Virus record (IMG/VR): IMGVR_UViG_3300009151_000197
Location: 1-35,512 of that record
DNA length: 35,512 nucleotides
DNA from: a virus
Strand: one strand, 5' to 3'
A program made the translations under genes and the position numbers. Each line of letters begins with the position of its first letter. The stretch's first letter is position 1. The notes beneath the pieces are model-generated. The model was not told where the DNA came from. It worked only from the letters and a program-made list of their open reading frames with translations, and did no database searches. Below, in pieces: positions 15,656 through 32,424 of the stretch.

Positions 15656-17563
15656 TTGTGCTACCATTGGCATGTGGCGATCTTACCCTCTCAACGCAAT
15701 AAATACTTTACTCTGCGGCGGGAAGGTTACGCTATGTCTCGTGCTGCTGCTGCGGCAGGCTTCTCTACCTCTACGGCCAAACGGCTAGAGGGCAAGAACG
15801 GCAATGAGGAGGGTGTAGCCCTTGTAAACTCTAAGCGGGAAGCGGACCTCAGTGGCCCTAAGAAGTTTGAGGACCTAAGCCCAGAAGCCGCCAGAGCCTT
15901 AGAGGACTTTGGGTATTTCCAACAGCGATACTTTGGGCGCATTGCTACCCCGTGGCAGATTGAGGCCGCCAACCGAATGATTGAGTGGCTGGACACCCCA
16001 GAAAAAGAATACGTAGTAGTTAACTGCCCTCCCGGTGCTGGTAAGACTACCCTGTTCTCCCACGACATCCCTGCTTGGGCAACTTGCAGAAACCGTGCCG
16101 TGCGTGGTTTGCTGGGTTCTGCCACCATGACCCTAGCCAAGCGTAACCTCATGCGTCTTAAGCGATCTTTTGAGCGTGTCTTGCCAGAGAAAGGCGATGA
16201 CATCTCTGTGGCCCGTGGATTGGCGCTAGATGCTCAGAGCACCCTTGCCTATGACTTTGGACGCTTCAAGCCCGTAGACCGTGAACTGTGGTCTGCTGAG
16301 GCCTTTGTGGTTATGCAGCATGAAGAAGCCGGGCAAATCTCTGAGAAAGAAGCCACGTGGTCTGCCTATGGTATGGACACCGGGTTCCTTGGTTCCCGTC
16401 TAGATTTTGTTATCTGGGACGACCTTGTGGACCCCCGCAAAATACGTACCTCAGAGCAAAAAGAAGCCCTTGAAAACTTTTGGCAAGACGTTGGTGAAAC
16501 CCGTCTAGAGCCGGGTGGCCTGCTAATCCTCCAAGGACAACGCATTGCCAGTGACGACCTTTACCGCTTCTCTCTAGACATGATTAAACCCGCAGATGAA
16601 GAAGAAGATGACGAGGATGCCTTCCTTGAAGAAAAAATTTCTTTAGACTCCCCGGTGGCAGGGGACAGACGGGATAAGAAATACCACCACATTATTTTTA
16701 AGGCTCATTACGAGGAGAACTGCGATGGGACAGAGCACAAAAAAGCGGCAAAACCCTACCCTGACGGGTGCCTCCTTGATCCCCGTCGCCTTGGCTGGCG
16801 TGAAATTAGCACGCTTCAAGCGAACCGTGGGGAAAGGTTTGAAGTTATTTATCAACAAAGGGACCTTGACCCTAGCGAAGTCTTGGTGCCCCATGCATGG
16901 GTTTTTGGACACGACGAATTCCCCGGATGTATTGACAAAGACCGAGATAGACTCCAGATTCCCGAAGGGATCAACGCCTCTGATTGCATATCTGTGGCTT
17001 CTGCTGACCCCTCGCCTACCATGTTCTGGGCAGTACAATGGTGGATCTACCACCCACCGTCCGACCAACGATTCCTCATTGACCTAACCCGCAAAAAGAT
17101 GGATGCTCCTGATTTTCTAGACTATGTGGCTCAAGAAAACAGGTTTGTTGGAGTTATGGAAGATTGGCAAAACGCTAGCGAAACCCTTGGTTTCCCTATC
17201 ACTACATGGATTGTAGAGGCTAACGCAGCCCAACGATTCCTGCTTCAGTATGACCATGTAAAGCGTTGGCAGGCCCGTCATGGGGTAGACATTATTCCCC
17301 ATACAACTCACCGAAATAAATCTGATAAAGATTTTGGTGTTGAAACCATCGCACCGCACTACAAGTTTGGTAGAATTAGACTACCGGGTAAAGGTGAAGG
17401 TAAGGTAGTCTCTATGCGTCTGATTGACGAAGTGACTCGCTATCCTCACGGAAGAACAAACGACTGCGTTATGGCTCACTGGTTTTTTGAGTGGCAGTTG
17501 CCAAACATTTATAATCCAGCGCCCCTTGGACGGGCAGCATGGCGACCAAGTTGGGTGGGTTAA
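15656..17563 (+). CDS. terL: Terminase large subunit with N-terminal helix-turn-helix-like segment
   Basis: 635 residues from TTG 15656, which has GGAG seven bases upstream; GTG 15674 is an alternative with no Shine-Dalgarno. ATPase motifs: Walker A CPPGAGKTT (124-132) and Walker B LDFVIWDD (249-256). The RNase H-like nuclease half has VASADPSPTMFWAVQ, TWIVEANAAQRF and HGRTNDCVMAHWF. The first 45 residues (RNKYFTLRREGYAMSRAAAA, GFSTSTAKRLEG) look like a helix-turn-helix, as though part of small-terminase DNA recognition is fused; no separate terS was found. It packages DNA into proheads and cuts concatemers. An acidic loop (ADEEEDDEDAFLEE) sits between the domains. Confidence 0.93.
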   Translation: MCYHWHVAILPSQRNKYFTLRREGYAMSRAAAAAGFSTSTAKRLEGKNGNEEGVALVNSKREADLSGPKKFEDLSPEAARALEDFGYFQQRYFGRIATPWQIEAANRMIEWLDTPEKEYVVVNCPPGAGKTTLFSHDIPAWATCRNRAVRGLLGSATMTLAKRNLMRLKRSFERVLPEKGDDISVARGLALDAQSTLAYDFGRFKPVDRELWSAEAFVVMQHEEAGQISEKEATWSAYGMDTGFLGSRLDFVIWDDLVDPRKIRTSEQKEALENFWQDVGETRLEPGGLLILQGQRIASDDLYRFSLDMIKPADEEEDDEDAFLEEKISLDSPVAGDRRDKKYHHIIFKAHYEENCDGTEHKKAAKPYPDGCLLDPRRLGWREISTLQANRGERFEVIYQQRDLDPSEVLVPHAWVFGHDEFPGCIDKDRDRLQIPEGINASDCISVASADPSPTMFWAVQWWIYHPPSDQRFLIDLTRKKMDAPDFLDYVAQENRFVGVMEDWQNASETLGFPITTWIVEANAAQRFLLQYDHVKRWQARHGVDIIPHTTHRNKSDKDFGVETIAPHYKFGRIRLPGKGEGKVVSMRLIDEVTRYPHGRTNDCVMAHWFFEWQLPNIYNPAPLGRAAWRPSWVG

Positions 17564-17564
17564 G

Positions 17565-19451
17565 TTGATTTCAGCAGAGCAGGTAGCGCAATTATATCAC
17601 CAACGGCGCTTGGAGCGACAGCCACACCTTACTCGCATGGATGAAATTAGGCGGCACTACAACGGTTCTATTGTTGTCCCCCTTCCCGAACTAGACGAAG
17701 CCGAAAAACCCGCAGTTGCCAACTTGATTGCTCAGGGTATTGACCAGTTTGCTATGCGTGTGGCTTCAGTCATGCCAATGATCTCTTACCCAGCCCTGCG
17801 CCCCGGTATCCAAGGTTCAGAAACCAAGGCCCGCAACCGCATGCTTGCCAACGAGGGATGGTGGGACATGAACCGCATGGGCACCAAGATGCGCAGGCGT
17901 GCTCGCTTTCTAACCGCTTATGGTACCGCTCCGGTAACTATTAGCCCGGTATCTATTGACCCTTCTGAAAAGCGCAAGATCCCATTCTGGCGTGCCCGCA
18001 ACCCTCTTTCCACCTTTCCCGCTCCCATCATTGACCCTGATTCCATGGAACCGGCAGACTGCATTTTTGTGGACCGCCGCCCTTTGTCTTGGTTGCGTTT
18101 TCATTATCCAGAGCAGGCTCGTGTGCTATTTACTGGAGACGCCGGACAAGACACTTTGTTTGAAATTCTTGAATTTGTTAATGCTGAAGAAACTGTTCTT
18201 GTGGCTATGGGTTCAAACCGCAAACCTCAAGATGATTACAACGCACAATCACAAGGTGTTGCCAGTCAAATGCTTCTTGAGCGTGTTCCTAACCGTGCAG
18301 AGATTTGCCCTGTGGTTATGCCCGGTCGCATTACCCTTGATCGTTTGATGGGACAGTTTGACACCATGTTGGGCATGTACCAACGTCAGGCTAAATTGGA
18401 TGCACTTAACACCATTGCGGTATTCCGCTCAGTGTTCCCTGACGAGTGGGTTGTGGGTCACGCTAACTCTCCCGGTAAACCCCGTATTGCTCAGGAAGCC
18501 GATGGCAAGATGGGTATTCGTGGTGTAGTTGAGAACGGTAACATTATGACCGTTAACCTTCAGCCCGGACAAATGGGTGAGCAAGCCATGGACCGCATGG
18601 AACGTGCACAGCGTCTGACTGCAGGCATCCCCGCAGAGTTTGGTGGCGAGTCTCCCACCAACGTCCGCACAGCCCGTCGTGGTGAAATGGTCATGGGTAA
18701 CACCGTGGACATGCCAATTCAGGAATACCAAGAGATCTTTGCCGCTTCAATGGAAGCCGAAAACCGTCGTGCCGTTCGTATTATGAAAGCGTATTACGGT
18801 GATCGCCCTAGTCAATTTTTTATGGGTAGTGATGGTGCGGTATTGCGTAATGACTACACACCTAATGACGATTTTGAAACTGATTTGTCTTACGTTAAAT
18901 ATGCAATGCCGGGATCAGATGTTAACGGCATGGTTATTTCCATTGGTCAGCGCATTGGTACTGGGCAAATGTCCGTACAGACTGCTCGTGAAATGGACCC
19001 TGCTATTGAGGACCCAATCCGTGAGCGTGACCAAGTTGAAATTGAAGGATTGCGTAAAGCCGCTCTGGCTGGCCTTGAACAGCAGGCGTCACAAGGTCAA
19101 CTAGATCCTCAAGTTATTGCCCGTATTGCGCTAAAGAAAGCCGAACGTCACATGACGTTAGAAAAAGCGTTACTTGAAGTTCATCAAGAAATGCAAAATG
19201 AGCAGGCTGCCCAACAGCAACAGCAACAGCAACAGGCTGGCTCAGAGGGCGCTCAAGGTGCCGAACAGGCCGGTTCGTCTCCAGAGGCTCAGGCTGGCAT
19301 GGCGGCACCCCCTCCCGGACAGGATAGCGGCAACCCTCCCGGCACAGCCATTGCCCCTCCCGAAGCGTCAGAAGCCAATCTTTCCTCACTTCTTGCTTCC
19401 CTTCGTCGCCCCACTCGTCAGACTCCACAGGAACAAGGGCTAAGCGGCTAA
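17565..19451 (+). CDS. Portal protein
   Basis: 628 residues from TTG 17565, one base after the TerL stop. The N-terminal region (ISAEQVAQLYHQRRLERQPH, then HYNGSIVVPLPE) and the later RLTAGIPAEFGGESPTNVRT with ARRGEMVMGNTVDMPIQEYQ fit the wing and stem of SPP1/HK97-type portals. The C-terminal 90 residues are low complexity: a Gln run (residues about 548-560) and Ala/Pro/Gly/Ser. The product forms the dodecameric DNA gate of the head. Identity rests on size, motif pattern and position right after terL. Confidence 0.85.
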   Translation: MISAEQVAQLYHQRRLERQPHLTRMDEIRRHYNGSIVVPLPELDEAEKPAVANLIAQGIDQFAMRVASVMPMISYPALRPGIQGSETKARNRMLANEGWWDMNRMGTKMRRRARFLTAYGTAPVTISPVSIDPSEKRKIPFWRARNPLSTFPAPIIDPDSMEPADCIFVDRRPLSWLRFHYPEQARVLFTGDAGQDTLFEILEFVNAEETVLVAMGSNRKPQDDYNAQSQGVASQMLLERVPNRAEICPVVMPGRITLDRLMGQFDTMLGMYQRQAKLDALNTIAVFRSVFPDEWVVGHANSPGKPRIAQEADGKMGIRGVVENGNIMTVNLQPGQMGEQAMDRMERAQRLTAGIPAEFGGESPTNVRTARRGEMVMGNTVDMPIQEYQEIFAASMEAENRRAVRIMKAYYGDRPSQFFMGSDGAVLRNDYTPNDDFETDLSYVKYAMPGSDVNGMVISIGQRIGTGQMSVQTAREMDPAIEDPIRERDQVEIEGLRKAALAGLEQQASQGQLDPQVIARIALKKAERHMTLEKALLEVHQEMQNEQAAQQQQQQQQAGSEGAQGAEQAGSSPEAQAGMAAPPPGQDSGNPPGTAIAPPEASEANLSSLLASLRRPTRQTPQEQGLSG

Positions 19452-19654
19452 TGGAATTAACCGTTTATATTCACGGTGATTGTTGGCGCTGTGGTTATGA
19501 TGATGTAGAATTAGTCACTGACCCCATGATGGAACCATTGCCCAACTTTGGTGCATTTGGCATGGACCTTATTGCAGTATGCTGTGATTGTGCCGCTGAA
19601 CGGTATGTAATTCACCACGAAAGAAAGGCAAAGAATCGTGCCAAGGAAGGGTAG
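19451..19654 (+). CDS. Small zinc-ribbon protein in the head module
   Basis: 67 residues beginning MELTVYIHGDCWRCGYDDVE, with a second pair in LIAVCCDCAAERYVIHH. CWRC and CCDC form a likely zinc ribbon, followed by a basic tail (ERKAKNRAKEG). The ATG overlaps the portal stop (TAATG). Small Cys-rich proteins at this spot are seen in other actinophages, role unknown. It could be a head accessory or a regulator carried in the late operon. Confidence 0.7.
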   Translation: MELTVYIHGDCWRCGYDDVELVTDPMMEPLPNFGAFGMDLIAVCCDCAAERYVIHHERKAKNRAKEG

Positions 19655-19664
19655 GGGAGGAAAA

Positions 19665-20099
19665 ATGAATGGTGAAGTTGGAACTGCTTATGCCCAGCGC
19701 ACTGACTTGCACAACAACCCAATGCCAGTTGAAGCCGCTCCCAATCAGGGATACGGTAAAGCCGGTGCACAACGTCAATCCCAACGCATAATTCCCGTGT
19801 CCCCCCAACAGATTGCGACTTCTGCTTTGCCCACCAATGCCCCCAATGCCCCTAGCGCTCCCAGCACTCCGGCAGCCCCCGCACCCGGTCCCGGTGATTT
19901 TTTGTTTACCCACCCCACTGAACGTCCCGGTGAACCAACTACGCATGGTTTGCCTAGCGGACTTGGAGATGGTCCGGAAGCACTAAACCTTCCTCTTAAT
20001 TCTCAACAAGGGTTGGCTAATAGCATCCGCAGCCTTGGGCAAGATCCTTTTGCATCTGAAGGTGTCAAAGCATTGACCAGCCTGTTGGGTTCCGTATAA
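19665..20099 (+). CDS. Pro/Ala-rich small virion-module protein
   Basis: 144 residues from ATG 19665, with GGGGAGG four bases before it. Residues about 55-85 are almost only Ala, Pro, Ser, Asn and Thr (TNAPNAPSAPSTPAAPAPGP), so the middle is disordered. Ends are more ordered (GLANSIRSLGQDPFASEGVK). The stop overlaps the start of the giant gene (TAATG), so the two are co-translated and might interact. No family is recognised. It may be an assembly chaperone or a minor head component. Confidence 0.65.
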   Translation: MNGEVGTAYAQRTDLHNNPMPVEAAPNQGYGKAGAQRQSQRIIPVSPQQIATSALPTNAPNAPSAPSTPAAPAPGPGDFLFTHPTERPGEPTTHGLPSGLGDGPEALNLPLNSQQGLANSIRSLGQDPFASEGVKALTSLLGSV

Positions 20100-23000
20100 T
20101 GGCCGATCAACCTCAACCATCTAGCGAAGCAGATCAGACTGCGTACTGGAACAACGCTCTGGCTAGCCAGTACGATACCATTCACACAGCATCATCTTAT
20201 GCTTTAAACCCCACCACCTCTATGGCCATTGCTCGTCAACCGGGCCTAACGTCGCAACAGGGCATAGATTACAGCCATTTGATGGCTGGTGGTTTGATGG
20301 CACAAGGCATTGCTAATGCTCACGCCTCTACAACTGCTGACCTGCACCACGATACAAGTGGTTATCTTAACGGTATTCTTGACACTGGCTGGGGAATGGC
20401 AAAAAACTTTGGCCTGAGTCACTGGCACTCTTTAATTGACCCATGGAATCATTGGTTTGGCCAAGGAGGTTCTTTTCAAGCCTCAGGTGGTCAAATAGGT
20501 GCCGCAGGAAATATTAAGGGCGGTTTTTCTATAGACAATGTTGCAGGTGGCATTGGTTCGTTTATTAGCAATGTTGTCAATTCTACTATTGGCAACATAC
20601 CAATCATTGGTAAGCCTTCTGCTTGGATAGTCACTAACCCTATTCACCATGCGGCTAGCGGTGTGGGCAAAACCTTAGATGAAATTAACCACCCAACTGT
20701 TGGTGGCGTTGGCGACATGTATGACGCTTTTGTTCCCGCAGATTTTCGTAGTCCCATTAAGGGCGCAGGCAATGCGCTTAATACTTTGACTCCTATTATT
20801 GACAACCTTGCTCATTCATGGCGTTATTTTCAAGAACTTAAAGCAGCGCATGGTCTTGCTTATGCTCTTGGTTCTGCTCAAACCGTAGCCTTGCCCGCCG
20901 TTGTTTTAACCGCTGCTTCGTTGGGAACCGCTACTCCCGAAGCCTCTGCACTACTTGCTGAATCTTTGGGTACCATGGCGGAAACAGTTGGAGCCGCAAC
21001 TACTGTTGCAGAAGCCACAGCAGCAGGAAGTCGCATGGCATCTGCTCTTGCAAAAGTTAAAGAAGCCAGTCAATTGCCCGGCACCCTTGCTTCCAAATTG
21101 ACTGCCAGAGGAGAAATTGTTGGTCGCCTTAAAGCAACGCTAGAACAAACTAAAATTGCTGACGCACAAATGCAATCGTCACTTAACAATTTTTACGACG
21201 CTCTCTCAGAAGCAGAAACATTAGGCAATGAACAACTAGCATCCAAACTTATTGACGATATTGCTAGAGTGCACAGCGATCTAAAAATTAACAATGCTCG
21301 CATGTGGGGATTTCGCTCCGCTATTGCCGCATCAGACGTTACCCGCCCAGCATTTCGCACCATTGGTTTGGTAACTAAGCCTCTGGGTAAGGTAGCCATG
21401 TCTCCTACAATGAACGCTATTCACGCAGGTATTCTTGGTTGGTCTAACGCTGATAAAGCGCTGTGGGCAAAATCTGCGGATGGCAACAAATGGATTGACC
21501 CTAATACCAAAATGCACGAATCATTTGGTCAAAGCGTATTGGCCACCTTTGGTATGGCTCCTCCCGCTAGTGGTGTAGGCCCAGCATGGTACAACGGTTT
21601 AACGGGCACCATGGACTTCCTGAACAAAATGGTTATTCCCGATCCACTCGGTGCAGCCGGTCAACTTGTTGGTGACATTCGCAGCGCAGAAGGTTTGGGA
21701 CAAGCAGGAAGCCTGTTGAACAAACGGTTTAGCGGCACAGCGCTGGAAAGGCAAACCATAAATAAGCAAGGCGTTACTGTTGACAGAGTAGACCAAATGC
21801 TTACGCAAGACTCCATTCGTATTCCCGGCACCCAAAAGCGCATTGGTTCGCTAATGGGTATTAACTCTACTTTTGGTCGTTTAGCCAAAATGACCGAAGG
21901 GCAAATTAGAGAGGCCCGTCCAGAACTAGCACCCATTGCTGACAGGCTTGGAGCCGCCCGTTCCCCCGAAGCCGTAGCAGAAGTGTTTCGCAACGCAGCC
22001 CGTGTTATGGAATTGCGCACCGCAATTAAAACTGGTTCCATCCCAACTATTCCGTTTTACACGTTTAACAGGGTAACCCGTACTAACGAAGGCAACTTGA
22101 TGGAACGGGTTGGCAAGTTAATGACCGTACCAGCCCCTGCTGACAAATTGCTTCAACGCAAATCTTTTGCTCTGCGTTACAATGCCTACGTTGCACGTAT
22201 GGTGGACCGTGGCATGCAAGCACGTTTGATGTTTGCCAAGCAAGCAATTTCCTACAGCGAAGCAGCCGGAAAGTTTGAAAACAAAGACATCATTCCCGGT
22301 GATAAATCTTCTATTGAAGCCATGGGTATTAACCTTATTGCAGCCGGTGAGGACCGCAAGGTAGTACAAGACATGATGGAACTTTTGCACGGTACATCTG
22401 ACCCTTCAGAATTTCGCCATATTTGGAACACGTCAGTGGCTAATTTGTTAAGAAGCCGCACGCAAGCCCTTATGTTTGACCCAGCGTTGCAAGGCGTAGC
22501 AGAATCGTTGGACAAAGTGTACGTAACATTAGCCAGACAAATGGCTGGTGGTGAACGGTTTGGCATGGGTGGCCCATATGTCAATGGAGAAACTGGTGAA
22601 GCAGCCAGCAAGGTTTTTACCAGAGATGAATTTGGTTTTCCTTTGGAAACACAGGCTGCTCTAACTCCCAAAGATCTTTCTAAACTGCACTTTATTTCTC
22701 CCAAGGAAGTTAACCGTGCCGTGCGTGCTGTGGCTGGAATTGCTATTCACGCCAACAAAGAACTAATTGAAGCAGTTGAAACGGCAGCGCTTGACGCAGC
22801 AACCATTGAAGAATTAACTGCTTACATGAAAGACATTAACTTTAATAGAAATAATTTATTGGATGCTATTAGAGAAGGATTACTTTTTAAAGGCGAAAAA
22901 CCAGAAAATAAAGTATTTGCTTGGATGCCCAAAGAAGGAGATCCTGTTACTCCCGGTACTATTTCTGCTTCTCCACAAAATTTAGAACGTGCAAGATTAG

Positions 23001-26000
23001 GAGGAATTGAACTCATTTTAAGTAAAGCAGAATTGGCATTTTTAAATAGCGACCATTTTATAGATGGCAAACAACTAAGTAAAATATTTCAGGATTTACA
23101 TGCTGACGCATTGCAAACAACTTTTAACGATTTAAGAATGTACGGCAGTTTGCCCGACAAAGCAATTCCTGTTAGTGAAGAAGTTTCGGCTGAGTTGTAT
23201 GCAGCCGCCATTCAAGGCATGGATCAAGCCCCAGAAAAAATTCGCATGCTTCTTAATAATCACCTTGGCGGTTTTGATGTTGAGGAGTTGATGGCAAAAG
23301 CAACTGACTTGCGCAACTTAACTCGGCACGACCCAATGGCTCCAGTGTATGAACAAGTACGTGACATTCCTTTGGTTCAACGCATTGCGGGCACAGCCGG
23401 AGGGGCTGCTAAAAATGAAAAGCAAATCTTTGACCGCCCTTATCGTACTAAGGGTCAAGTGTGGCTTGACAGCGCAGACTATTGGGTTAACAGGATTTTC
23501 TTTGCTATTCCTGCTCTGCTTACACCGGGCTGGGCGGAACGTGTTTCGTTGTCAGAAATGCTGCTCAACTCCATGCGCTTTGGCCCAGTAACTTATGGCC
23601 GTGCTATGCGTGCAGCCAAACTGGCTTCTAAAGAATGGCACCTTACCAACAACGAAGTTGGGTTGTTTGGGTCCGTCACTCGTGGATTGCTTATGGGTAT
23701 ATCGGCAACCCGACTTGAGGCAGCCAACCAAGCCCGCCTTGTGGAAGATGCGTTTAACCTTGTGGGTTCTAATGACGGACACATGAACCTATCAGGCGTG
23801 GATTCAGTTCACAACCGTTATGACCAAAGCGTAGAAAACATGGCTCATTATTACGATGGCCAAATGGTTCACCTTACGCCAGACCATGTTCAAATTAAAG
23901 ACGAAAAAGGCAAGGTACTAGGCCTCTTTACTCGTCAGAACGAAGGCAGTACGGCTCCTCAATGGAAGTACAGCAAAGTTTGGCGCACCAATACCTACAA
24001 GCATAACGATCCCTATGGCATGGCATACCCCGATGATTGGCATGCACAAGTCAGCCTTGCTACTCAAGACCCATGGATGAAAGAAGTTGCCGGGATTATT
24101 TGGAATGTTAAACAAAAATCACGGGAAGCACTGGAAGGTGAATTTGGCCAAGGATACCGGGGCCGACGTTGGGGACAGCCAGAATCAAGTCGTGTGCATT
24201 TGCGTGGCAGGGAAGCAACTCCAATGCTTTACAACGTCGGTGCGTTTCAAACCGAATATTGGCAAGAAAACGATTCTATTTATACTCAAGTAGAACGTTT
24301 TCTTAAATCACAACCTGATTCTGTTCGTGAACAATTTTTGCGCAACAAACTTTCCAGCCAAGGAAACAATGAAGAAAATCCTATTAGAAGTTGGGCAGAA
24401 GATCTTTCTAATCACATGTGGAGCCTTGTTCACAACGCTTTGCCTCACGAAAGAGAATGGCTAGGCGTCGGGCACGAAGCGCAACAAGTACTTATTTACC
24501 ACGAAGAAGTTTTGCGTCAAATTGTAGATGATGCAGTGCAAAGCCCCCGTGACTTTGCCCATTACATTGAGCATGGTTTTTTTCCTCATCTCCGCACTGA
24601 GTTGATGCACCGTGACCTAATTGACTTGGCTGAGCACAGCCCTCATGCTACAGATTTAACGGCAAGAGAAATTCAAAGAACGCCACCACGAGTAAAGGCT
24701 TTGATTACTTGGGGCGACGTTCGCAACGTACCCGGTTGGCAAGAAGGCCAAAATATTCCTGTTGAAATTACAGAAGATGCTGCTGCGTTTAGGGAATTTA
24801 TTGAATCTGAACAATTAGGTACGATGTTCCATGGTGCCAAGCATCGGCTTCCTCCAGAAATTCTAACCTTTCGCAATCATTTCCCGCCCGACAATAATGT
24901 TTACGGTCCGGGACTTTATGAAACCACTGATCCTCAAACAGCGTTGGGGTACATGGTTGCTGATCCTAAAGAAGATGTTAAAAATGGCCGTTCTATATTG
25001 TCTACACAACCACAAAAAGGAGTCCGCTACCTTAGTTTGCACGATCCGCTGTCGCTAGAATTAGCAGACAAGGTGCACACTTTTTGGGTAACCGATCACT
25101 TGCCTAAAATAGAATCCTTGCTTCGCACAATAAAAAAAACAACTTTGCGCAACGAATTTCCTGAAATGACAGAAGCACAAATAATGGAAAAATTAAAGGC
25201 TGCAAAAATTGAAGATTTGTTAACAAGAGATTTTAGGCATCACATATCTGAAGGATTAGAAGAAGGCTATACAGATATAGAAACTGGAAGTGCCAACGAT
25301 GAAGGTTATAATTCTTATGGTCCCAGCACGTACAAATTTCACCGTGAACTAAGAAATGATTTATATGATGCAATACGTTGGCTAGATAGCACGTATGGCG
25401 CATTAGAATCCCACAGCCAAAAAATAGCCGATATTGTAGGTGGAATAGATCCGCAATGGCTAGCCAAATTTGGCGACGACCCTAAAGCACTTGCCATTAT
25501 GATTGGTGAAAGGCTTTACTACGATTCCGTTAAGCCTATTCAAGACGCTGGTTACGATGGTTTTGCTCATATTGGTGGCAACCTCACCCGTAATGACCGC
25601 AACCACGTTGTAACCGTTACTTTTCAACCAAATAAAACTAGAAAAATTATGCACGTGGAACAAGTAGATGACCATTTAGTTGAACAAGATCTTCGTACTT
25701 ATGGTGCAGACCAGAAAAAGGGCGACGTTATGTTTGCCCCCGAAACTGTTGGCAAGCGTGCATTTGCTTCACACGAATTGCCTCAAAAAATTGTGGCTCA
25801 AGACATTGACACTAATTTTCGTCTTGACAAAACAATTCAAAGAGTTTCAGATTTTGGCCATGCCAAGTTTCTTGGGCCTATTGTGAATCGCCTATCTCGT
25901 CAACCAACTTTCCTGTTGGACTACCACCGTGAAATGAACATTCTGCGCAGGCGTATTCAAAATTTGCAAGAGGGCAAAATTACAACCAACGCCTTAACTG

Positions 26001-28294
26001 AAAAAGTTATGCACCTCACGTTTAAAAACATAGAAGAACGTGAAGCACACAAATGGCCGACAGAGCCTCTTGACGATGGAAAAGTAATAATTCCAGAGGC
26101 GCAATCACACGAAATTGAAATGATGCCTTTAGCCAAAGCACTTGAATTGGCTGGCGTGGAGAGTGGTAAAAACATTACTAATGATCCCCCACTCTATCAA
26201 ATGAAACACCTTTCAGAAGATGGATTTCAAAAGCCCATTGAAATTAACTACTACGCTCCTAGTGATCAACCACACACTGCTCACATAGATAGAAGATCAC
26301 AAGAGGGGTATAATCTTGTTCTCTTAGACGCAGCCCAACAACTAGGTTTGACTCATGTTCCAGTATCAGTACTGAGGGGCGACTGGATAGCAAGCCACGC
26401 TGTAACGGTATCTGGTTATGAATCAGGGTTTAACAATGCTCCGGCGTCAGTGCGCAAAGTTATTTCATTTGACCGACCAATGATACCAAGCCGACCTTTG
26501 GCATCTGACATTGGCTTGACTGCTCACGATCCCGAAGATCTTGTAATAAATGGTGACCTGACAAAAGAACAAGCAGTTCAGTTAGCACACGAACGTGCAG
26601 TACGTCAAACCATTCGTTTTGTTCACAACCCCCAAGACAAAACTAACTTTGAAGCGTCTATGAGCGCTGTTGCACCGTTTTACTTTGCTCAGATGCAGGC
26701 ATGGCGTCGTGCTGCTCGTTTGTTTTTGAACAACCCCGGCAAATTTGAACAGTACATGAAAGCAAGTCTGGCTGTAACTAACTACATTCAAGGAGCCACT
26801 TCTTCCAACGGTCCCATCTTAATGATCCCCGGTTCCCAGTTAATGGGTGCTGGCGTTGGCATGCTGGCTTCTGGCATGGGATGGAAACTAGGATTGGTCG
26901 CTGGTTCCGGTGGTCTGAAATCCGCCATACCCACAGGCATTGTAGGTGGTGGCGTCAAGGGACTTATGGAAGCAATAATGCCTTCATTTGGCCCGCTAGT
27001 TACGGTTCCCGTCAAAGCACTAGGCCATGTGGTTCAAAGAATGATTGGCACAGATGATCCAAAAGATCAGGCCATGGTAGAAAAGGCTATGGAAATTGTG
27101 CTTGGTCCCATTTCCGCCCGAACTCCTCTATGGGGAGATTTTATTCCTAACTCCATGCTTCGCAATGCTGTGGTTGGCATTGTTGGTTCATCCAGCGCAG
27201 GCAACAGCCTTGCTACTTCTATGAGCGCATCATGGGCCAACGCTCAGGTTTCATCCTTGAACTCCTACATGCAAGCATGGTTTGAAAAAGAAGCCCGCCG
27301 TATCCATGAAAATCAACCCAGCATGCCAATGTCTGGTGTATGGAATACAGCGTATGCCAACTGGGGCGACTGGGCTAGGCATAACCAAACACAAATTTTG
27401 GCTGATGTGCATAAGGGCGCAGTCATGTCTTGGATTGCTCGTTCGGCTGCTCAAGCGTTCATGCCGTTCTCCCTATGGTCACAAGATCAGGGCGTAGAGT
27501 TTAACAAAAAACTTTTGGATGACGTAAGCAAGTATGGTTTAACTGAAGGTTTTGCTCACTACGAAAAAAACAACCCCGATCATTTGTTGAGCGAAACAAT
27601 GAAAACTGCTAGCCCATACGGCTCCGTTTCTTACAGCGAAAAATCTTGGAAGTGGATGTCTGAAAACCCTGAAGCAGTAGCCAAGTACCCTCGCATCATG
27701 CCTTACCTGCTGCCACGCAACGACACATCGTTCTCGCCACAAGCCTTTGCTTACGAATTGGCCACTGGTCTGCGCACACGTCAGACACCCGCAGATGCTT
27801 TGAATTCCATGCTGATGATTGCTGGTAACCACTATTTCTATGATGAACTTAAGCCTGCCGTAGATGCGTACAAACAGCAACTGTTGGATAGCGGACATAA
27901 CGAGGCTAGCGCAGGCTATCTTGCAAGCCAAATGGAAACCAAAAATGCTGATGCTTTTGGCCAAGCGTACAATCCTTATTGGGCTGACCACCGCAAGTCT
28001 TTCCAGAAAAAGGCAGACGCCGTTGACGCACTGAAGCAACTAGAAAACCTTATTAAGGACAAATCTGTACCCATGCCTGACGAAAACTTTCGTCAAAATA
28101 TGGACACGGTTTACAAATCATTTGTAAGTTACAATGACCAATACAAGCAAGCAGAAACAAACAACGACAAAAGCACAATGTCAGCGGTTAAAACTGCGTG
28201 GTGGAATTACACAGATCAAATTTCCAAAACAAATAAAACTGTAGACGCCGTGCTTCGTGGCGTCTACTATCGTATTCCTCTAGGGAGCATCTAA
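20099..28294 (+). CDS. Giant virion-associated protein with ADP-ribosyltransferase-like domain
   Basis: 2,731 residues, a quarter of the window, between portal and scaffold genes. It lacks an obvious single fold. Visible parts: Ala/Val-rich hydrophobic helices at about 255-300; long helical regions with many coiled segments; an ADP-ribosyltransferase-like core with FHGAKHRL (His1578), YGPGLYETTDPQTALGYM (Gly1605-Tyr1607) and, about 210 residues later, GYDGFAHIGG (1818-) plus VTVTFQPNKTRKI; an RFVHNPQ...PFYFAQMQAWRRA region near 2190; and a Gly-rich hydrophobic stretch at about 2238-2308 that could enter membranes. Such polyvalent proteins are usually packaged in the head and ejected with DNA. 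ART activity and ejection are inference. Several segments are AT-rich compared with the rest. Confidence 0.8.
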   Translation: MADQPQPSSEADQTAYWNNALASQYDTIHTASSYALNPTTSMAIARQPGLTSQQGIDYSHLMAGGLMAQGIANAHASTTADLHHDTSGYLNGILDTGWGMAKNFGLSHWHSLIDPWNHWFGQGGSFQASGGQIGAAGNIKGGFSIDNVAGGIGSFISNVVNSTIGNIPIIGKPSAWIVTNPIHHAASGVGKTLDEINHPTVGGVGDMYDAFVPADFRSPIKGAGNALNTLTPIIDNLAHSWRYFQELKAAHGLAYALGSAQTVALPAVVLTAASLGTATPEASALLAESLGTMAETVGAATTVAEATAAGSRMASALAKVKEASQLPGTLASKLTARGEIVGRLKATLEQTKIADAQMQSSLNNFYDALSEAETLGNEQLASKLIDDIARVHSDLKINNARMWGFRSAIAASDVTRPAFRTIGLVTKPLGKVAMSPTMNAIHAGILGWSNADKALWAKSADGNKWIDPNTKMHESFGQSVLATFGMAPPASGVGPAWYNGLTGTMDFLNKMVIPDPLGAAGQLVGDIRSAEGLGQAGSLLNKRFSGTALERQTINKQGVTVDRVDQMLTQDSIRIPGTQKRIGSLMGINSTFGRLAKMTEGQIREARPELAPIADRLGAARSPEAVAEVFRNAARVMELRTAIKTGSIPTIPFYTFNRVTRTNEGNLMERVGKLMTVPAPADKLLQRKSFALRYNAYVARMVDRGMQARLMFAKQAISYSEAAGKFENKDIIPGDKSSIEAMGINLIAAGEDRKVVQDMMELLHGTSDPSEFRHIWNTSVANLLRSRTQALMFDPALQGVAESLDKVYVTLARQMAGGERFGMGGPYVNGETGEAASKVFTRDEFGFPLETQAALTPKDLSKLHFISPKEVNRAVRAVAGIAIHANKELIEAVETAALDAATIEELTAYMKDINFNRNNLLDAIREGLLFKGEKPENKVFAWMPKEGDPVTPGTISASPQNLERARLGGIELILSKAELAFLNSDHFIDGKQLSKIFQDLHADALQTTFNDLRMYGSLPDKAIPVSEEVSAELYAAAIQGMDQAPEKIRMLLNNHLGGFDVEELMAKATDLRNLTRHDPMAPVYEQVRDIPLVQRIAGTAGGAAKNEKQIFDRPYRTKGQVWLDSADYWVNRIFFAIPALLTPGWAERVSLSEMLLNSMRFGPVTYGRAMRAAKLASKEWHLTNNEVGLFGSVTRGLLMGISATRLEAANQARLVEDAFNLVGSNDGHMNLSGVDSVHNRYDQSVENMAHYYDGQMVHLTPDHVQIKDEKGKVLGLFTRQNEGSTAPQWKYSKVWRTNTYKHNDPYGMAYPDDWHAQVSLATQDPWMKEVAGIIWNVKQKSREALEGEFGQGYRGRRWGQPESSRVHLRGREATPMLYNVGAFQTEYWQENDSIYTQVERFLKSQPDSVREQFLRNKLSSQGNNEENPIRSWAEDLSNHMWSLVHNALPHEREWLGVGHEAQQVLIYHEEVLRQIVDDAVQSPRDFAHYIEHGFFPHLRTELMHRDLIDLAEHSPHATDLTAREIQRTPPRVKALITWGDVRNVPGWQEGQNIPVEITEDAAAFREFIESEQLGTMFHGAKHRLPPEILTFRNHFPPDNNVYGPGLYETTDPQTALGYMVADPKEDVKNGRSILSTQPQKGVRYLSLHDPLSLELADKVHTFWVTDHLPKIESLLRTIKKTTLRNEFPEMTEAQIMEKLKAAKIEDLLTRDFRHHISEGLEEGYTDIETGSANDEGYNSYGPSTYKFHRELRNDLYDAIRWLDSTYGALESHSQKIADIVGGIDPQWLAKFGDDPKALAIMIGERLYYDSVKPIQDAGYDGFAHIGGNLTRNDRNHVVTVTFQPNKTRKIMHVEQVDDHLVEQDLRTYGADQKKGDVMFAPETVGKRAFASHELPQKIVAQDIDTNFRLDKTIQRVSDFGHAKFLGPIVNRLSRQPTFLLDYHREMNILRRRIQNLQEGKITTNALTEKVMHLTFKNIEEREAHKWPTEPLDDGKVIIPEAQSHEIEMMPLAKALELAGVESGKNITNDPPLYQMKHLSEDGFQKPIEINYYAPSDQPHTAHIDRRSQEGYNLVLLDAAQQLGLTHVPVSVLRGDWIASHAVTVSGYESGFNNAPASVRKVISFDRPMIPSRPLASDIGLTAHDPEDLVINGDLTKEQAVQLAHERAVRQTIRFVHNPQDKTNFEASMSAVAPFYFAQMQAWRRAARLFLNNPGKFEQYMKASLAVTNYIQGATSSNGPILMIPGSQLMGAGVGMLASGMGWKLGLVAGSGGLKSAIPTGIVGGGVKGLMEAIMPSFGPLVTVPVKALGHVVQRMIGTDDPKDQAMVEKAMEIVLGPISARTPLWGDFIPNSMLRNAVVGIVGSSSAGNSLATSMSASWANAQVSSLNSYMQAWFEKEARRIHENQPSMPMSGVWNTAYANWGDWARHNQTQILADVHKGAVMSWIARSAAQAFMPFSLWSQDQGVEFNKKLLDDVSKYGLTEGFAHYEKNNPDHLLSETMKTASPYGSVSYSEKSWKWMSENPEAVAKYPRIMPYLLPRNDTSFSPQAFAYELATGLRTRQTPADALNSMLMIAGNHYFYDELKPAVDAYKQQLLDSGHNEASAGYLASQMETKNADAFGQAYNPYWADHRKSFQKKADAVDALKQLENLIKDKSVPMPDENFRQNMDTVYKSFVSYNDQYKQAETNNDKSTMSAVKTAWWNYTDQISKTNKTVDAVLRGVYYRIPLGSI

Positions 28295-28296
28295 TT

Positions 28297-29043
28297 ATGA
28301 CCGACACCATGCCAACCGCACCCATGCCAGAGCAGCCCGCAGAGCCGCCAGTAGATCAAGGCCCACCTGCGGATGCCGTACCACAGGACATGCAGACCAC
28401 CGCTAACTCCGATGGTTCGCCCATCCCTCAGCAATCTATTGCCGAAGCCAATGGAGAACCTTCCCCCGTGGCTGATACTACTGCTGGCACGGCACCACTT
28501 CAGGCACCTACGGCAGACATGCAACCCGATGATGAGGATGCCGGTGGCCATGACGCTGTGGCTACGGTGATTATTAACATGGCTCACGATTACATGGTGC
28601 CCATGTCAGACCAATCCAAAGTTGAATGGGTGCACCATCTTGCTGAATCCAAAGCCACCCCAGAAGAAGCCAAGGCAGCGTTTCAACCTTTTGCAGAACA
28701 GATTGCCATGGGCTTGTACCCAACCTTTGTTCCTCAAATTCAAGCAGGCATCCCTGTAAAATTGCTTCTTGACCCCTACGTGGAAGTGGCTAAGCAGATG
28801 CTTGGCAGCGAACAACAGCCAGACTTTACTGATCCCAAGTGGAGCGCAGCATTGGACGGTGGCCGTGATCCCAAGACTGGTCGCCCTGTTCCCATGTCTC
28901 TATCTGAATGGCGACAAAACATTATGTCTAACCCAGTCTTTGACTGGAAGCACACCAAGCAAGGTCAAGAAACCATGGCCAACATGGCCGAATCCCTACA
29001 CCAATCCTTTAGTAACGCACAACCGCAGGAGCAACAACCATGA
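28297..29043 (+). CDS. Virion-module protein with Pro-rich disordered N-terminus
   Basis: 248 residues. The first 85 are Pro/Ala/Gln-rich and acidic (PTAPMPEQPAEPPVDQGPPA). The rest is a helical domain with HDAVATVIINMAHDYMVPMS, EEAKAAFQPFAEQIAMGL and SLSEWRQNIMSNPVFDWKHT. The ATG is three bases after the giant gene stop, and its TGA overlaps the next ATG. A head-internal or assembly role is likely from position; no family is recognised. Confidence 0.7.
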   Translation: MTDTMPTAPMPEQPAEPPVDQGPPADAVPQDMQTTANSDGSPIPQQSIAEANGEPSPVADTTAGTAPLQAPTADMQPDDEDAGGHDAVATVIINMAHDYMVPMSDQSKVEWVHHLAESKATPEEAKAAFQPFAEQIAMGLYPTFVPQIQAGIPVKLLLDPYVEVAKQMLGSEQQPDFTDPKWSAALDGGRDPKTGRPVPMSLSEWRQNIMSNPVFDWKHTKQGQETMANMAESLHQSFSNAQPQEQQP

Positions 29044-30527
29044 ACTACCTCCAGTATCTAAACGATAGCAAAGGCATTAAGCGGGAACGTGGGCCTAAGC
29101 GCAAAAAAGCAACTGATCCGCTGGTGGATACGCCGGGAAGTACGGCTAACTCCTCTACAGGAGGTCCAATACAAGGCGGGTTTCGGCTTGGCGCTGATTA
29201 CTGGAATTTGCTTAACGGCCTATACCAATCTCAAACCGGCAAGACGTTACCTGAATTTGGCGTGTTTCACGGTACCCCTATGGAAATTGCACAAAAAATT
29301 ATGCAAACCGTTCCCGTGGAAGTGCTCCCATATATTTCCAAAACCATGGGTGTGGATATAAACAAATATAATTTGGCAGGCAAAGACCCACGTTCAGAGA
29401 AAACTTTTCTTACATATCTTGCAAGCGGAATTACTGGCGTTCACGACGGTGTTGCAGCGGGTCAAGCCGCTAACTTGAGCCAATGGCTAAGTTTGCACCC
29501 CAACGCTGGCGTGCAGCCCGGTGGTAAGGGAATGACAGGTAGGCAATTTAAGGAAGCGCAAGCAGCCGCCTATGCTGCTCAGAATCCCACCAATGGCCCT
29601 ACGTCCCAGCCTGACCCGTCTGCTCAGCAGATGTACACGTCATACGAAAACGTAGTTAACCAGTACCTAGACGTATGGGGACTAGGGCCTAGCGGAAGCC
29701 ATGATCTTTCTGATCAGTTGTTTGAAAAAGTTACTCAAAACCATTGGATTAACCAAAAAGAATTATTGACGTGGGTGCGATCCACCGACGAATACAAGCA
29801 AACCTTTCCCGGCTTAAACGAGCACAACGCTGACCCCACCAAAAACAATATGACCGAAGCCGATTACATGAACTACCGCAATACTGCGGGGGAATTGGCT
29901 GGTCAATATGGTTTGCCTGCTGGCTTTATGACCAAAGATCGTGTTGCCAAACTGGTAGAAGGTGGCGTTTCCACTGCCGAATTAAGCGAACGGTTCTCCA
30001 AGGTGGCCACCGCAGTCAATAGCGCTGATAAGAATGTTCTAAAAGCCTTAGGCAAAATGGGTGTAGATACAGGACATCTCGCAGCATACTATCTTGATCC
30101 TAAAAATCATTTGAAAGAAATGGAAAAAACAGTAACTACTGCTCAGATGATGGGTTTTGGCGCAGACGTAGGACTTACCGGAGCGAGCGACAAACTCTAC
30201 CGCCAGATTGCTACGCAGGCACGAGGTTTGGCTACAGGCGCAGGTCAGCCCTATGACCTCTCACAAGCCCGTGCAGCCATTCAAAGTGCCAACAAGGACA
30301 TTTCCCTTACCCGCTCTGCCGCAGGCGCAGGGGGCACCTCACAGCCCATAGTTTCAACCGCACAGTTGGTTGGTTCCCAGATGGCTGGTGTCGGTGGCGG
30401 CAACATGATTAAGGCTCAGCAGGCAGTACAGCGTGCAGAACAAGCCCGTATAGCCCCATTCCAAAAGGGAGGCGGTTATGTCGCTTCTATTAAGGGAGTA
30501 GAGGGCGCAGGAGTTTCAAAAGCGTAA
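29040..30527 (+). CDS. Virion-module protein of 495 residues, function unknown
   Basis: Begins MNYLQYLNDSKGIKRERGPK, basic and disordered for 45 residues, then helical blocks with SQTGKTLPEFGVFHGTPMEI, YENVVNQYLDVWGLGPSG and TWVRSTDEYKQTFPGLNEHN. Similar YxxVVxxYLxxWGL...LxxxVRxTxEYxxxFPG modules occur in large structural proteins of freshwater and actinobacterial phages. The C-terminus is Ala/Gly/Gln-rich. The start overlaps the upstream stop (ATGA). It may be packaged with, or assemble onto, the giant protein. Confidence 0.7.
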   Translation: MNYLQYLNDSKGIKRERGPKRKKATDPLVDTPGSTANSSTGGPIQGGFRLGADYWNLLNGLYQSQTGKTLPEFGVFHGTPMEIAQKIMQTVPVEVLPYISKTMGVDINKYNLAGKDPRSEKTFLTYLASGITGVHDGVAAGQAANLSQWLSLHPNAGVQPGGKGMTGRQFKEAQAAAYAAQNPTNGPTSQPDPSAQQMYTSYENVVNQYLDVWGLGPSGSHDLSDQLFEKVTQNHWINQKELLTWVRSTDEYKQTFPGLNEHNADPTKNNMTEADYMNYRNTAGELAGQYGLPAGFMTKDRVAKLVEGGVSTAELSERFSKVATAVNSADKNVLKALGKMGVDTGHLAAYYLDPKNHLKEMEKTVTTAQMMGFGADVGLTGASDKLYRQIATQARGLATGAGQPYDLSQARAAIQSANKDISLTRSAAGAGGTSQPIVSTAQLVGSQMAGVGGGNMIKAQQAVQRAEQARIAPFQKGGGYVASIKGVEGAGVSKA

Positions 30528-30549: not shown

Positions 30550-30601
30550 AGGGAATGGCCCTGTTTTTACAGGTGACGCTACTCCCTAACCCGGCTTGGG
30601 T
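30550..30601 (+). promoter_or_regulatory. Structured leader upstream of the scaffold gene
   Basis: Nested stems: AGGGA (30550-30554) with TCCCT (30583-30587), enclosing CCTGT-TTTT-ACAGG (30560-30573); then ACCC (30589-30592) with GGGT (30598-30601). The rest of the gap to 30691 has no gene and ends with GAAGGAG, eight bases before the scaffold ATG. It may stabilise capsid mRNA or attenuate read-through. Confidence 0.5.
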
Positions 30602-30691
30602 GGCACAACCAAGTTGCGTACAGAGTGCGTCAGAATATATTTCCATATCCATCACCTCCGGTGGGTGTGCGTAACCGAAGGAGCGGAAGCC

Positions 30692-31180
30692 ATGAGTAAC
30701 GACTTTGACTTTGAGTTGGACGAAACTGAAGATGTACAACCTAGGGTTCTTGACCCTAACATCAGAGAACAGTTAAAGACAGCAAAAAGGATTCAGCGAG
30801 AGCGGGATTCCGCATTAGCAGAATTGGAAACCTACAAGCGTGACGCAGAGTTCACGAAGATGGGGATTCCTGACATTGGCGTTGGTCGCCTTTTCAGAAA
30901 GGCTTACGATGGGGATGTCACCCCCGAAGCAGTCCTAGCGGCTGCTAAGGAATACGGCATCCTTGAGAGTAGGCCACAGGATCAGGCAAGGCACTCGGAT
31001 ACTGACGCAGAACTAGCGCAACTTGCAAGAGTGCAAGGAGCCACCGTTGGGAGTAGCGGGTCAAACCCCGTAGCCCCCGAACAACAGTTTGCAGCAGGGT
31101 TAGCAGACGCTAACACTCCAGAGGAAGTCATGGCTTTCATACAGAACATGCGCTCGGAATATCCCGACGCAGGTTTCTGA
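30692..31180 (+). CDS. Capsid scaffolding protein
   Basis: 162 residues from ATG 30692, with GAAGGAG eight bases upstream; the frame extends up to 30596 but without a ribosome binding site. The order is typical of scaffolds: acidic N-terminus (DFDFELDETEDVQPR), a central coiled coil (QLKTAKRIQRERDSALAELE), then LFRKAYDGDVTPEAVLAAAK and a polar tail. Position immediately before the major capsid gene supports the role. The scaffold would guide prohead assembly and leave before DNA packaging. Confidence 0.85.
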   Translation: MSNDFDFELDETEDVQPRVLDPNIREQLKTAKRIQRERDSALAELETYKRDAEFTKMGIPDIGVGRLFRKAYDGDVTPEAVLAAAKEYGILESRPQDQARHSDTDAELAQLARVQGATVGSSGSNPVAPEQQFAAGLADANTPEEVMAFIQNMRSEYPDAGF

Positions 31181-31230: not shown

Positions 31231-32424
31231 ATGGCAGATACCTACACCCAGTCCAGTAACTTGGACTTTTCCCAGAAGGCATACGACCGGATGGCGTACT
31301 TCGCCCTCCGTCCCGAACTGTACTTTGACCAAGTTGCCGACGTTCAGCCTACTGCGCAGAGCATGCCCGGTACGAGCGTCACCTTCACCATTGTCAACGA
31401 CCTCAGCATTGCTGCTGCGCCTATCACTGAAGCCACGGATGTGTCCGCCGTTTCAATGTCAGACAGCATTGTTACGCTGAGTCTCGCTGAGTATGGTAAC
31501 GCAGTCATCACCACCGCCAAGTTGCGTGGTACTTCATTCGTTGAGATTGACCCCATCGTTGCCAACGTGGTTGGTTACAACGCTGGTGTGTCCATTGACA
31601 CGGTTGCCCGTAACGCCCTTGGTCTTGGTACCAACGTTGCCTACGCCACTGGTTCAACCCGTGCGGCTCAGGGTAACTCCAACATGCTGACCGCTGCTCA
31701 GATCCGTACCGCTCGTGCCCGTCTGCGCTCGCAGAACGTGCCGACCTTTGGCGGAATGTACGTTTCGTACATCCACCCAGATGCGGTATATGACCTCCAG
31801 AGTGAGTCCGGTGGAACGTCCAATGCAAACTGGCGTGACCCGCACATCTACTCGCAGCCCGGAGAAATCTGGAGCGGTGAGTTGGGTGCCTTTGAGGGTG
31901 TCCGTTTCATTGAGACTCCTCGTGCCCTTGCTTACGCAGGCGCAGGTTCCGGTGGAAGCACCACGACCCTGAGCACGACCGCTAATTCAACTGCCGTTTC
32001 ATGGTCAAGCGGAAACGCTCCCGTGTCGGGTGACCTCGTTACCGCTGTGTCCTCCTCGGTCACCGCCGGTACGGTCCTCATTTCGGTGGATGCTGTGAAC
32101 AAGACTGCCGTTCTTTCGGCTGCTGCTCTCACGACTGGTACCGCTACCGTTTCAACGGGTGGAGCCAACGTGTTCGGTACGGTTGTTCTGGGTCGTCAGG
32201 CTCTGGCTAAGGCTCACTCTATCGTGGACGGTAACGGCCCAGTGCCTCACGTGGTTCCCGGTCCTGTGACTGACCACCTCCGCCGCTTTGTCCCAATGGG
32301 TTGGTACTGGCTTGGTGCTTACGGAATCTTCCGTCAGGCTTCGGTCTACCGCATTGAGCACGGTTCCTCACTTGGTGCCGACCTCACTGGTGGTTTTGGT
32401 CCAGACATTGACGAGGGCGAATAA
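31231..32424 (+). CDS. Major capsid protein, HK97-like fold (N4 gp56 family) with inserted surface domain
   Basis: 397 residues. The first 230 residues (LDFSQKAYDRMAYFALRPEL, DLSIAAAPITEATDVS, LAEYGNAVITTAKLRGTSF) and the end (GRQALAKAHSIVDGNG, GWYWLGAYGIFRQASVYRIE) follow the N4-gp56/HK97 major capsid pattern. Residues about 236-311 are an inserted Ser/Thr/Val-rich segment (LVTAVSSSVTAGTVLISVD, KTAVLSAAALTTGTATVS) like a small beta-sandwich displayed outside. Codons are unusually C-ending (ACC, GTC, CTC), as expected for the most abundant protein. AGGAG lies 11 bases before the ATG, with a GGTAA/TTACC hairpin (31185-31197) after the scaffold gene. Confidence 0.93.
   Translation: MADTYTQSSNLDFSQKAYDRMAYFALRPELYFDQVADVQPTAQSMPGTSVTFTIVNDLSIAAAPITEATDVSAVSMSDSIVTLSLAEYGNAVITTAKLRGTSFVEIDPIVANVVGYNAGVSIDTVARNALGLGTNVAYATGSTRAAQGNSNMLTAAQIRTARARLRSQNVPTFGGMYVSYIHPDAVYDLQSESGGTSNANWRDPHIYSQPGEIWSGELGAFEGVRFIETPRALAYAGAGSGGSTTTLSTTANSTAVSWSSGNAPVSGDLVTAVSSSVTAGTVLISVDAVNKTAVLSAAALTTGTATVSTGGANVFGTVVLGRQALAKAHSIVDGNGPVPHVVPGPVTDHLRRFVPMGWYWLGAYGIFRQASVYRIEHGSSLGADLTGGFGPDIDEGE

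Follow-up and report, generated by a model that had tools for sequence, protein, structure and literature searches.

An ADP-ribosyltransferase-like domain inserted into the conserved core of a giant phage virion-module protein

Why does a phage encode a protein of 2,731 residues among its head genes, and what is a region resembling an ADP-ribosyltransferase (ART) doing inside it? The question is raised by the IMG/VR virus record IMGVR_UViG_3300009151_000197, which was analysed in its entirety (35,512 bases, here called the window) and in which an open reading frame (ORF) at positions 20099–28294 of the plus strand runs from an ATG through 2,731 codons free of internal stops. An initial annotation had described this giant gene as encoding a virion-module protein with a probable ART domain. 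As it has 84 homologues, the gene is no chance ORF, and the domain was found again; what has to be given up is the view that the ART is the essence of the gene: the ART is a lineage-specific insertion, and many relatives possess the same conserved helical core without any ART. We consider it probable that the product serves a podophage as an internal ejection protein with swappable effector inserts, the insert in this case being an ART of the H-Y-D type that would modify the host on entry.

A conserved core and its insertions

The relatives were found by pattern-plus-tblastn scans of IMG/VR, which returned 2, then 22, then 80 of them, and a genome scan added two in contigs of metagenome-assembled genomes (MAGs), one labelled Acidimicrobiaceae. 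They are mostly uncultivated phages and form 55 clusters at 80% identity, with the window protein in a cluster of its own. Retrieval was seeded on motifs of the core block C described below, which biases the sample to members having that motif, so that the size of the family and the statistics on insertion sites are minimum figures. One contig of this phage family (L027:1-6073; L numbers denote individual loci) lies in a MAG labelled Legionella; the label was not used for host assignment, as the contig is short and probably misbinned.

Four conserved blocks (N, M, K and C) occur in one order in all relatives that are long enough, and the insert-free core common to the family comprises about 1,970 residues (1,971 states of its hidden Markov model, HMM). 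In the window, block N corresponds to residues 1–930 (20099–22888), block M to residues 1105–1185 (23411–23653, with the motif ALLTPGWAERVSLSE), block K to residues 1891–1955 (25769–25963) and block C to residues 2146–2731 (26534–28291, with the motif HNPxDKTxF...VAPFYFAQMQAWRRAARLF), all on the plus strand. The predicted structure of residues 1880–2731 is all-alpha, with a predicted local distance difference test score (pLDDT) of about 85 in block C (53-row alignment). Foldseek matched it in BFVD to a protein of Streptomyces phage Manuel (A0A2H4PQW9) and to five other viral models (E-values 4.5e-12 to 1.4e-4), and matched the K and C part to nothing in the PDB. The giant protein as a whole has no trustworthy match in Pfam, PHROGs or the PDB, and BLAST against INPHARED (50,697 phage records) gave no match for it or for a core-only relative. 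Hits of the full protein to PF03186 (CobD, 6e-4) and Cdh1_DBD_1 were rejected as spurious, being below the curated cut-offs and biologically implausible. Hydrophobic stretches had been suspected of crossing membranes, a suggestion that we do not retain: only residues 252–275 reach a mean hydropathy of 1.4, and these marginally, so that none is convincing. The GC content, about 0.50 in the surroundings, falls to about 0.44 in the middle part of the gene (22500–27000).

Two distant, core-only homologues occupy the same place as the giant gene. One is gp09 of Streptomyces phage Immanuel3, a hypothetical protein of 1,648 residues at the equivalent genome position, which the core HMMs detect at 2.6e-7 (block N) and 1e-3 (block C); the other is a protein of 1,772 residues from phage ct2KA10, which matches block C at 5e-17 (a small database was searched, so all three E-values are lenient). 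Streptomyces phages are also among the best matches of the capsid protein and the terminase large subunit (TerL) of the window. The likeness to the Beephvirinae, Streptomyces podophages represented here by Immanuel3 gp09 and the Manuel protein, thus consists in a distantly homologous core at the same genome position, whereas the Immanuel3 protein, with its roughly 1,650 residues, has no recognised insertion. Microscopy shows phage Abafar, another member of this subfamily, to be a podovirus (PMC11536984).

To map the insertions, an HMM was built from 25 insert-free members, and the window protein and 21 members whose spacing is unusual were aligned to it. In the window, 400 residues that are not present in insert-free relatives (residues 1491–1890; 24569–25768, plus strand) are flanked by core states 1313 and 1318 (site D), and the ART domain lies within this insertion, not in the core. 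A second insertion of 190 residues (1956–2145; 25964–26533, plus strand) is found at site E (states 1383–1390), which is also used in L029, L041 and L075. For this second insert a ParB/Srx-like identity was considered but is not supported: ParB profiles did not match, and the suspicion relied only on a faint pattern seen by eye and a low-confidence strand-strand-helix trace. Insertions of other relatives fall at site A (state ~810; L009, L073 and L088, with L013/L055, L016 and L075 nearby), site B (states ~1041–1077; L018, L021, L029, L053 and L058) and site C (states ~1180–1260; L005, L057, L068, L069 and L072). L088 and L063 provide a clean filled/empty pair: residues 1–918 of the former align with 1–915 of the latter at 58% identity and residues 1140–2368 with 917–2141 at 61%, the 221 residues in between being an insertion, with an ART domain, on the L088 side. 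On a quick tree of 47 C blocks, insert presence switches at least 16 times, an approximate figure based on spacer-length thresholds.

The ART-like domain

The domain, of the ART-HYD type, spans residues ~1571–1850 (24809–25648, plus strand). Segment 1540–1874 matches phrog_25279 in a profile search (E=0.0019); this family matches the window record at 3.2e-5 and none of 14 control genomes, and its members GAP32_436 and XaC1_303 match Pfam ART-PolyVal (PF18760) at 2.9e-11 and 8e-14. Scored with a profile of eight phage ARTs, the window segment reaches 23.0 bits (2.7e-5), while none of 2,000 shuffles exceeds 6.8 bits, and when all giant proteins were scanned this profile was clear only in the window and in the L084/L086/L088 cluster. 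The motifs first read from the sequence are indeed present (MFHG, GPGLYETTDPQTALGY and AGYDGFAH...VTVTFQPNKTRKI), and within them lie the predicted catalytic residues His1578 (MFHG, 24830–24832), Tyr1607 (GPGLY, 24917–24919) and Asp1820 (AGYDG, 25556–25558), all encoded on the plus strand. This triad has the same order as in phage relatives and is invariant in the alignments, at an overall identity of 22–32%; H, Y and D form the active site of the ART-PolyVal-type clade (PMC5512222). We looked for a catalytic Glu of the kind seen in H-Y-E ARTs and did not find one; the relevant clade uses the Asp that is present. Nor does the domain have an R-S-E triad, and the ADPrib_exo_Tox profile has no match in the window. 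A search of the segment against plasmids found no match.

The probable ART domain is thus supported by remote homology (phrog_25279 and the phage ART profile) in combination with an intact H-Y-D triad. Compared with ART-PolyVal/Tox-ART-HYD2 and phrog_25279, it has the three residues in the same order, and its first two motifs are similar at profile level; it differs in lying below Pfam detection, in being inserted in a virion-module protein and in a Tyr–Asp interval that is longer by about 100 residues. A stand-alone ART-PolyVal gene of the jumbo phage XaC1 (L025:2992-3585), annotated as hypothetical, has as neighbours a gene for a virion structural protein and an ORF of 4.7 kb.

Head-module setting and cargo of the relatives

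Pfam and PHROG profile searches locate the head module in the downstream half of the window, with all genes on the plus strand. TerL (15656–17563; phrog_38, 4e-50) and the portal gene (17487–19451; phrog_104, 3e-7) are followed by a small conserved virion-module gene (19638–20099; phrog_8200), the giant gene, two conserved partner genes (28297–29043, phrog_6654, and 29040–30527, phrog_8424), a probable scaffold gene (30596–31180; phrog_7813), so called because the capsid gene follows it, and the gene of the major capsid protein (31231–32424; PF13252, 1e-28), a family that presumably also includes the capsid protein of phage N4. The same order is found in all relative loci long enough to show it, which upholds the placement of the giant gene in a virion module and agrees with the virion/late-gene placement of polyvalent proteins. 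Its location between portal and scaffold, as originally described, is correct, with the qualification that it adjoins neither: a small gene lies on its portal side and two genes lie on its scaffold side. Capsid proteases and minor head proteins had been mentioned as occurring at such positions, but neither a MuF nor a capsid protease or peptidase domain was matched in Pfam or PHROGs. PADLOC gave no match.

In one relative, the second partner gene (L003:8083-9702) contains an NlpC/P60-like wall hydrolase domain (PDB 7cfl, 2e-5), as would be expected of a cell-entry module; it was not detected in the versions of this gene in the window or in L002. The homologue of the same gene in L072 (15315-17951) has 879 codons, nearly double the usual size, so that cargo may also be inserted there.

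The inserts of several relatives have recognisable domains. ADPrib_exo_Tox is matched in L009 (6e-13), where the catalytic motifs R, S-T-S and E-x-E can be discerned by eye, and in L029 (1.6e-11); the L084/L086/L088 cluster has an ART of the H-Y-D type (25–28 bits with the phage ART HMM; DUF3990, 3e-4); L013/L055 have NADAR (1.8e-24) and two DUF4326 domains (9e-33); L016 has ParB_N (6e-7); and kinase-like (HipA/PI3K-like) domains are found in L068 (4e-7) and L069 (2.7e-4). Of the eight lineages whose cargo was recognised, five have ADP-ribose chemistry. Relatives such as L013 carry two domain types; the window protein has one recognised enzyme domain besides the core and the second insert. Most other large inserts gave no functional Pfam or PHROG match, and the site-E insertion of L041 (13745-17287), 1,159 residues long, is without a recognisable domain, as are similar ones in L018/L058, L057 and L072. 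In phages, NADAR and DUF4326 typically stand alone; a role in the processing of ADP-ribose products has been proposed for both, and frequent packaging has been discussed for ARTs and NADAR proteins (PMC9503650).

An ejection protein with exchangeable cargo?

It is the position of the gene, the gene set around it, the podovirus relatives and the giant size that point to an internal ejection protein. On this reading the helical core formed by blocks N, M, K and C would be packaged in the head and would exit by way of the portal alongside the DNA, accompanied by the proteins that the two following genes encode. The core would tolerate insertions at a few loops, into which phages of this group would repeatedly have put effector domains. 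The main cargo here, at residues ~1571–1850, would be an ART of the H-Y-D (ART-PolyVal/Tox-ART-HYD2) type. Inside the cell, and ahead of all phage gene expression, this enzyme would consume NAD+ in modifying some macromolecule of the host. The target would probably be a protein, and the analogy of T4 Alt makes host proteins likely.

That a packaged effector might be ejected on entry had been suggested at the outset, and it fits the precedents of T4 Alt, polyvalent proteins and the virion RNA polymerase (vRNAP) of N4. Polyvalent proteins (PMC5512222) resemble the giant protein in being large, encoded beside portal and terminase genes and equipped with ART-PolyVal-type domains, and the giant family adds other effector types of their repertoire (ParB-like, kinase-like). 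Unlike them, it is built on a helical core family outside the Pfam and PHROG entries tested, with inserts at recurring core sites, and it has neither a Pfam peptidase nor the zincin-like motif HExxH, which is common but not universal among polyvalent proteins. T4 Alt, a virion-packaged and injected ART, would be alike in being delivered with the DNA, whereas it is a stand-alone enzyme of the R-S-E type, unlike the H-Y-D domain of the window, which is joined to a giant core. The vRNAP (Schitoviridae gp50, with partners gp51 and gp52), which is known to be ejected, is likewise a giant podophage protein encoded with two partner genes (PMC12633501), but no RNA polymerase domain was found in our protein in Pfam, PHROG and PDB searches. 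T7-type ejection proteins are a further precedent for internal ejection proteins (PMC8954989).

Several points weigh against this interpretation. PF18760 does not match the window, and AlphaFold modelled the ART segment only at low confidence (pLDDT 42, predicted template modelling score 0.32, from a 6-row alignment); on these two grounds we call the ART assignment good but unproven. The profile match spans mainly the first two motifs, so that the Asp motif rests on alignment, and the spacing of 213 residues between Tyr and Asp is longer than in phage relatives. The core is without a match among solved structures, and the self-processing metallopeptidase motif of many polyvalent proteins is missing. 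What is shown is an intact ORF, its gene order, a conserved core, insertions and ART-family similarity with an intact triad, whereas packaging, ejection, catalysis and target are inferred.

Of the alternatives, the one that survives best, though we think it unlikely, is that the insertions protect the phage, with ART, NADAR, DUF4326 and ParB-like cargo countering bacterial immunity based on NAD or ADP-ribose. The processing role proposed for NADAR and DUF4326 and the prevalence of ADP-ribose chemistry among recognised cargo speak for it, but an ART attaches ADP-ribose and does not take it off, which makes host modification the better fit for the cargo of the window; the two explanations are not mutually exclusive. 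A second alternative, which we consider improbable, makes the giant protein a structural protein of the capsid interior or a minor head protein; it would not leave the particle, and its enzymes would act during head assembly in the producing cell and not in the next host. This would suit a gene between portal and scaffold and a product with no membrane-spanning region beyond one marginal stretch, but NAD/ADP-ribose, kinase and ParB-like cargo has no plausible role in assembly and matches the lists predicted for injected polyvalent proteins, one relative has a partner protein with a wall hydrolase domain, and giant ejected proteins are known from other podophages. Weakest, and quite improbable, is a catalytically dead or remnant domain that aids assembly or binds NAD or ADP-ribose without modifying anything, as all three predicted catalytic residues are kept despite the low identity to phage ARTs, and other members have independent ART types with catalytic motifs of their own (by eye, in L009), even though divergence from PF18760, the long region between Tyr and Asp and the many relatives without the domain would be in keeping with it.

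We therefore favour an ejected protein with an ART effector as cargo. The general idea of injected multidomain polyvalent proteins with ARTs is already known; the core family and the repeated insertion of cargo at recurring sites appear to be new within the literature searched, in which subscription papers were incompletely covered. More tentatively, it may be that in a widespread, mostly uncultivated podophage lineage the ejection protein serves as a delivery chassis, a fixed helical core with a few permissive sites. Lineages would exchange the enzymes carried at these sites, foremost those that handle ADP-ribose, and each phage would enter the cell with a pre-made effector of its own, covalently attached to the entry machinery. 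If this is true, the family would be a concrete case of effector acquisition by phage ejection proteins, with insertion sites that recur, one site seen both filled and empty, and numerous independent changes; matched natural cargoes would be available for comparison, and ejection would become testable in the cultured Streptomyces podophages that possess the core. It would also suggest that manipulation of NAD and ADP-ribose is a need of these phages in the first minutes of infection.

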